Source: Pseudomonadaceae bacterium (GTDB lineage Bacteria; Pseudomonadota; Gammaproteobacteria; Pseudomonadales; Azotimanducaceae). Taken from it: DNA of 64,000 bases. Each line of letters starts with the position of its first letter. Positions within the stretch are counted from its first letter, which is position 1. The stretch lies in the NCBI GenBank assembly GCA_024743175.1, contig JANSXA010000011.1:93878-157877 (forward strand), in the 5' to 3' direction. Made by a program: the position numbers and the translations under genes. Shown here piece by piece: positions 873 to 1,397 of the stretch. Below the pieces are notes generated by a model. That model worked only from the letters and a program-made list of their open reading frames with translations. It had not been told where the DNA came from and ran no database searches.

Positions 873-1397
873 ATGAGATACAAACGCATCCTGCTGTTTG
901 TCGCTGCTCTGCTCTTTACTGCCAGTGCTTCTGCTGCGCCACAAGTTGGTGACATGGCCCCTGACTTTAGTCTGCCGGGTAGCGACGGCAACACACACAC
1001 CTTGTCAGACCTTCGCGGTAAACATGTTGTTATCGCCTTTTTCCCCAAAGCCTACACAGGCGGCTGAACCATCCAATGTAAAGCGCTGCGTGACAGTGCC
1101 AGAGAAATTACAAACTTCGACATCGCCTATTTCATGGCCAGTGTCGATTCGCTGGAAGACAACACCGGCTTTGCTAACAAGAACAATGCTAACTTTCCGA
1201 TATTAGCGGATGTCACAAAGACAATGTCTGAGGCTTATGGCGTGCTGCACTCTGCAGGATTCGCTCAGCGCTGGACCTACTACATCGATCCGCAAGGCAT
1301 CATTATCAGAATTGACAAAGATACCAACCCGGCAACAGCAGGTGCTGATCTGGTCGACAGTTTAAACGCCTTAGGGGTACCTGCGGCGGCAGATTAA
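873..1397 (+). CDS. Exported peroxiredoxin with in-frame TGA at the peroxidatic position (probable selenoprotein)
   Basis: The ATG at 873 follows a GGAG Shine-Dalgarno. The frame reads a signal peptide (MRYKRILLFVAALLF, cleavage after ASASA), then the AhpC/TSA fold start PQVGDMAPDFSLPGSDG and HVVIAFFPKAYTGG. It then meets TGA at 1065-1067 and continues without a break as TIQCKALRDSAREI to the stop at 1397. In Cys homologues this motif is FFPKAxTGGCTxQCK, so the TGA sits exactly at the peroxidatic Cys (residue 65 of 174), with a resolving Cys four residues on. The downstream half is intact over about 110 codons and its whole length is peroxiredoxin-like (WTYYIDPQGIIIRID). Selenocysteine insertion is the best reading; a nonsense mutation is the alternative. 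It would reduce peroxides in the periplasm. Selenoprotein peroxiredoxins are an established class. selABCD genes are not in this window. Confidence 0.85.
1083..1099 (+). promoter_or_regulatory. Candidate bacterial SECIS hairpin
   Basis: GCGCTG (1083-1088) can pair with CAGTGC (1094-1099), with one G-U pair, around the five-base loop CGTGA. The loop has a G in its second position, 23 bases after the TGA. Known bacterial SECIS elements are short hairpins within about 16-37 bases of the UGA, with a G in the first two loop positions. This one fits by spacing, size and loop. Binding by SelB is inferred. Confidence 0.65.

Follow-up and report, generated by a model that had tools for sequence, protein, structure and literature searches.

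The window analysed here, a stretch of 64,000 nucleotides from a Pseudomonadaceae bacterium, contains close to its start a frame of the peroxiredoxin type that is interrupted by a single in-frame TGA and holds no further stop (Table 1). When the frame is read through this codon the active site becomes FFPKAYTGG-U-TIQCKALRDS, where the TGA takes the place of the peroxidatic cysteine in TGGxTIQC and a cysteine codon follows four residues on (U-x3-C), exactly as the original prediction had read them from the letters alone. The roughly 110 intact, peroxiredoxin-like codons that it gave past the TGA come to 109 before the TAA, and the Pfam match to AhpC-TSA (PF00578; residues 25-145, E 2.1e-31, with C put for U) spans the TGA. 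The split that it expected from standard gene callers is also obtained, as table 11 gives 873-1067 (64 aa) and a separate ORF at 1134-1397 (87 aa). Since the gene is split under the ordinary code, a likely peroxide-defence enzyme may be missing from annotations or be present in them in two pieces.

Table 1. Features of the peroxiredoxin locus, in positions of the window
Feature	Position	Strand	Basis
Putative Sec-peroxiredoxin gene, 174 aa with TGA as Sec (U65)	873..1397	+	Pfam AhpC-TSA spanning the TGA, C put for U
GGAG, ribosome-binding-like, 6 nt 5' of the ATG	863..866	+	Sequence reading, putative
Predicted signal peptide MRYKRILLFVAALLFTASASAA, cleavage likely near its end	873..938	+	Hydrophobic stretch and AxA heuristic; model helix 2-16
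TGA at the peroxidatic position (TxxU), residue 65, very likely selenocysteine	1065..1067	+	Frame and aligned codons
TGT, Cys69, candidate resolving Cys (U-x3-C)	1077..1079	+	Cys in 151 of 151 loci
SECIS candidate hairpin, stem 1084-1088/1094-1098, loop CGUGA 1089-1093	1084..1098	+	Conservation

A sulfatase-like gene (1-792) lies directly upstream and RimK-like and AstE-like genes sit downstream. The sulfatase-like gene is the sole neighbour common to the window and the 12 compared loci, a relative of it being found ~3 kb upstream of the peroxiredoxin in L055, L058, L059 and L061, which are apparent near-copies. Neither this gene nor the two downstream ones were counted as partners. Elsewhere in the window a tmRNA gene (5422-5778, minus strand) was identified, and at its end the window runs into a 16S rRNA gene, of which it contains the first part (62942-64000, plus strand).

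The sequence PKAYTGGU within the AhpC-TSA domain has the pattern PxxxTxxU by which Sec peroxiredoxins (COG1225) are recognised. On the window protein all 12 listed NCBIfam families score under their own cut-offs, among them the BCP equivalog PRK09437 (86.1 bits against 140) and the PrxU equivalog NF040737 (52.1 bits against 270). Among solved structures AhpE of M. tuberculosis is the closest in sequence (61.9 bits), and a Foldseek search with the structure model (mean pLDDT 93.8) gave BCP and AhpE as top matches. In the alignment behind the model, 58 rows comprising the window protein and 57 of 120 listed homologues (thus picked from 121), Thr62 and Arg133 are invariant; we take these to be two of the usual peroxiredoxin catalytic residues. 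The model places U65 and C69 together in helix 63-74, as i and i+4, which differs from the C-x4-C arrangement of classical BCP; the PRK09437 score is 86 bits under a cut-off of 140, and the peroxidase function is presumptive. These points would suit an exported Sec-containing oxidoreductase of the thioredoxin fold that acts on thiols or selenols, or a redox relay, instead of a peroxidase. The TxxU threonine, which 89 of the 90 U loci described below retain, the invariant Thr62 and Arg133 in the 58 rows and a fold matching BCP and AhpE speak for the peroxidase and make this alternative improbable.

When the codon at the active site was read from alignments in 151 related loci it was TGA in 90, TGC in 48 and TGT in 13, that is, either TGA or a Cys codon at every locus, the alternation of U and C that had been proposed as a check. 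With 90 of the 151 loci carrying TGA and the other 61 TGC or TGT, the TGA is not a chance event. The Cys counts represent a sample, the fetched portion of the Cys matches of the family among the matches listed. Beside the 76 genomes of the window's family, the 90 U loci include 12 named contigs from a genome collection, some apparently holding the same gene as one of the genomes, and G752 and G734, which belong to other families of the class; without identical stretches they reduce to 78 and further to 74 distinct hairpin windows, and the 151 loci to 139 tree rows. Cys is found at U+4 in U and Cys forms alike. A regular expression for the catalytic Arg matched 85 of 90 U and 26 of 61 Cys loci, and the alignment was relied on for this residue instead.

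The predicted enzyme is widespread in the window's gammaproteobacterial family: a search at E <= 1e-30 matched 156 of its 206 genomes, with TGA in at least 76, the latter being a lower bound among the matches listed. In the class sample five of 369 genomes matched at the same threshold, three of them with TGA including the window's own, and in the phylum sample three of 398 matched, with TGA in the window's own only. An order-wide DNA pattern was found in at least three of 390 genomes, a lower bound because the pattern had GAR where the window gene has CAA and so missed the window gene itself. One U form (L127, genome G793) keeps the hairpin and has an altered active site, with V-G-R-U-S in place of T-x-x-U-T.

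The TGA is one base away from TGC and TGT, and in the nearest relative (L060, which seems to be one gene with L071) an in-frame TAA follows 75 codons past the TGA, perhaps through an assembly error or through actual decay of that copy. That the window codon is a nonsense mutation, part of a decaying pseudogene or a sequencing error is nevertheless hardly credible, given that at least 76 of the 206 family genomes, and two from other families, share this TGA, that the hairpin sequence is conserved and that third-position changes predominate past the TGA. Third codon positions take 62% of the changes between U genes (634 pairs, codons +13 on, ungapped), a bias that a truncated product would not impose and which shows that the full-length protein matters. 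As to the close TGC strains and disabling changes named in the original prediction as evidence against it, the window frame contains no other stop and the nearest relatives are less than 70% identical.

When the region behind the TGA was analysed, a putative hairpin was identified whose loop begins 21 nt past the TGA; the window copy has an extra sixth pair (1083-1099). All U loci but one (89 of 90) carry the core CTGCGTGACAG behind the TGA, and none of the 61 Cys loci does. Codons +6 to +9 have synonymous identities of 0.92, 0.97, 1.00 and 1.00 among the 78 distinct U rows, compared with a background of mean 0.45 (sd 0.13, max 0.67; codons -20 to +39 without +4 to +9). In a set of 18 close relatives of the Cys type, in which +8 and +9 are likewise Arg and Asp, the same codons show only 0.35-0.58, and some other codons in this small set reach 0.71-0.84, by chance or constraint. 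The five stem pairs are complete in 70 of 74 distinct U windows, L112, L118 and L135 losing one pair each and L113 containing an N, while the loop CGTGA is present in 74 of 74 compared with 3 of 59 Cys windows; pair 20-32 is GU, GC or AU in 71 of 73. The sole other core, in a locus from a different family (L069), has the closing pair changed from GC to CG on both sides with all five pairs kept, and this is the only case of a both-sided stem-pair change.

The folding energy of the window hairpin, in a single-sequence fold, is no better than that of shuffles (z -0.08), and the case for a SECIS element therefore rests on conservation and not on energy. When the 13-base CGCTGCGTGACAG was searched with up to two mismatches it occurred four times in the window against 2.8 expected, exactly at 1084-1096 only. 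A hairpin just past the UGA with a G in a small loop, as the CGUGA hairpin has, agrees with the small apical loop with G that is given for bacterial SECIS elements in PMC1088965 and PMC2398784. The conserved 5-bp hairpin with loop CGUGA is very likely a SECIS, to which SelB is predicted to bind. The same UGA together with a near-unchanging hairpin in at least 75 other genomes of the family makes it very likely, on sequence grounds, that the UGA is read as selenocysteine.

The window genome (4.72 Mb in 18 contigs, 98% complete) contains all four of selA, selB, selC and selD, for which the original prediction had proposed a search. SelA (519 bits), SelB (424 bits) and tRNA-Sec (71.7 bits; ARAGORN tRNA-SeC, anticodon tca) adjoin on contig C7 and SelD scores 271 bits. 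A reassigned code, in which UGA would be read as Trp or Cys, could be proposed from the Trp that stands at the site in 11 of 120 listed database hits (best 120 of 1,936). These Trp residues probably represent TGA translated by another table, and with the next gene in the window ending in TGA (2676-2678) and a tRNA-Sec with anticodon tca and SelB present in the genome such a reassignment is exceedingly improbable.

The SelD match (L187, G000:C7:289900-293200, minus strand 472-2775) apparently forms the C-terminal section of a longer frame, the N-terminal portion of which resembles NADH dehydrogenase; Ndh-SelD fusions are mentioned in PMC2398784 and the frame looks similar. A second candidate selenoprotein of the window genome (L186, G000:C5:78500-81200, minus strand 395-1675) was matched by the peroxiredoxin query with one TGA, and its frame, with TWSSWUGCQLD, resembles by eye the known ResA-like WAxxUGC family (NF041054).

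Among the U genomes selB was found at E <= 1e-60 in 64 of 76, and in 44 of the 47 of good quality (completeness >= 90, contamination <= 5). In the 12 U genomes where selB was not found at this cut-off, three of them of good quality (G010, G031 and G832), fragmentation into 50-1,090 contigs may explain its lack in every case. As a test the co-occurrence of U and selB is weak, since selB is over the cut-off in 161 of 206 family genomes.

Linkage of the peroxiredoxin gene to selB is not seen in the window genome, where the gene lies on contig C8 and selB on C7. A selB place was listed for 62 U genomes. In 15 of these the peroxiredoxin follows selB within 2 kb on the same strand, in five more the distance downstream is 7.6-7.9 kb, and in the remainder it is farther from selB or on another contig; the two are on different contigs in many genomes, in which distance cannot be judged. 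As the 15 belong to two genera (g27 and g30) and the other five all belong to a third (g29), few independent linkage events are represented. Among Cys forms of either clade, none of the 59 genomes with both places listed has selB within 10 kb on one contig.

The gene order was read by eye in seven fetched loci of the closely linked type (up to 2 kb). In L172, L174, L175 and L178 it is PLP enzyme, small lipoprotein-like gene, selA, selB and peroxiredoxin, in L176 one additional gene stands between selB and the peroxiredoxin, and in L173 and L179 the order is selA, selB, peroxiredoxin. Profile matches were obtained for PALP in L172 and L174 and for SPOR, SelA, SelB and TIGR01275 (D-cysteine desulfhydrase family) in L172. 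The PLP enzyme lies 5' of selA in several genera (844-1857 in L172, 947-1933 in L174; by eye in L175-L178) and possibly links sulfur or selenium supply to Sec synthesis. A search of the 11 fetched loci, selB-linked or not, found no tRNA-Sec.

In a quick maximum-likelihood tree of the 139 rows, calculated with the site codon masked, a starred branch separates the 78 U rows together with 18 Cys rows from the 43 other Cys rows. The tree requires four changes, only one of which is forced by starred branches, and it carries a warning of long branches, which leave some placements uncertain; L138, at one of three nested positions of Cys rows, is among them. Most simply the changes suggest one gain of Sec from Cys followed by about three reversions to Cys; 14 of the 18 nested Cys genomes retain selB. 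With about four inferred switches, and a SECIS core that is conserved in the U forms and missing in the nested Cys forms, the clade makes a good test set for Sec/Cys exchange.

Decoding of UGA as Sec is commonly inefficient. The UGA could accordingly act as a selenium-regulated stop, the 64-residue product being common and Sec inserted mainly when selenium is plentiful. Such regulation would be compatible with a selenoperoxiredoxin; as a description of the gene it is rather unlikely, as sequence constraint past the TGA shows the complete protein to be important and no U genome has a second, Cys-type match (E <= 1e-30) among the matches listed that could stand in for it. One genome, G878, has two TGA matches.

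Export is predicted from the N-terminus MRYKRILLFVAALLFTASASAAPQ, which combines a basic start with a hydrophobic stretch and an AxA site. Of the 90 U loci a sequence heuristic located the mature start in 78; all 78 have a hydrophobic leader, and 69 of them also have AxA and a Met before it. Export and a function on the outer side of the membrane are predicted for the window enzyme on this basis. The window genome has one match to DsbD_TM, so a membrane electron source exists, and the protein in question may serve the peroxiredoxin. If the enzyme is exported, it has to be asked by what means a selenol would persist there and be recycled.

The original interpretation of a predicted-exported Sec peroxiredoxin with U-x3-C is thus supported, and it has gained the conserved hairpin within the gene and the selB linkage in other genera. 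Taken as a whole, we consider it highly probable that the gene encodes a BCP/AhpE-like peroxiredoxin whose UGA is decoded as Sec, with SelB predicted to bind the hairpin and the enzyme predicted to be exported and to act on peroxides extracytoplasmically. In the proposed sequence of events Sec-tRNA would be delivered at 1065-1067 with SelB holding the hairpin at 1084-1098, 21 nt from codon to loop, and the protein would be exported by the general secretory route and then lose its signal peptide. The selenolate of Sec65 would attack the peroxide, and the selenenic acid formed would, after local unfolding, give a selenylsulfide with Cys69, which lies four residues further along that helix as modelled. 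The enzyme may be reset by an extracytoplasmic thiol relay fed from DsbD-type membrane electron transfer.

A further-reaching proposal starts from the selA-selB cluster of several genera in which the gene is carried: the exported selenoperoxiredoxin would be a dedicated client of the Sec machinery, defence against external peroxide would be a main cause of the retention of the Sec trait, and the selenol would cross the membrane unfolded and only then form the selenylsulfide with Cys+4. This we put forward tentatively, as a possibility with the odds somewhat against it.

By sequence and fold the nearest known proteins are PrxQ/BCP (PRK09437) and AhpE, both of which are cytoplasmic and carry Cys where the window protein has Sec. 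BCP has its resolving Cys at C-x4-C, an arrangement replaced here by U-x3-C with Cys+4 throughout the 151 loci, and AhpE is titled a 1-Cys peroxiredoxin while the window protein has both U and Cys+4. PrxU of Eubacterium acidaminophilum is reportedly a Sec enzyme, and its profile (NF040737) shares with the window protein the Sec-type peroxiredoxin character and the TxxU site; it is 233 positions long, however, and gives the window protein 52 bits against a cut-off of 270. The Cys relatives of the WFPKAYTxGCTIECK type (43 rows) are C-x3-C proteins of similar length with a hydrophobic leader where one was located, and differ in having Cys for Sec and in being without the CTGCGTGACAG core.

Sec peroxiredoxins as such exist, as the original prediction had presumed, and those with TxxU form an established family: 43 sequences (COG1225/PF00578) are given for the Sargasso Sea set (PMC1088965) and 253 for GOS (PMC2398784), and the family also appears in PMC1794560, PMC9312934 and PMC13188914. 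The window protein shares with the Sargasso and GOS enzymes the COG1225 type, peroxidatic Sec in TxxU, Cys homologues and the small apical loop with G, and differs from them, as they are described in the parts of these papers at hand, in the predicted signal peptide, the Cys at U+4 and the selA-selB linkage in relatives. The two sets are kept apart here by these descriptions and may include the window's lineage. By term counts 'signal peptide' is absent from the main texts of the five papers (PMC1088965, PMC2398784, PMC1794560, PMC9312934 and PMC13188914), and 'periplasm' occurs in that of PMC9312934 only, about selenite reduction. Among literature titles and abstract openings, few of them from subscription papers, no report of an exported Sec-peroxiredoxin, of U-x3-C or of selAB linkage was found. 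The kind of enzyme, a Sec-peroxiredoxin, is therefore known, and what appears new here is its predicted export, the U-x3-C pair and, in some genera, its place behind selB.
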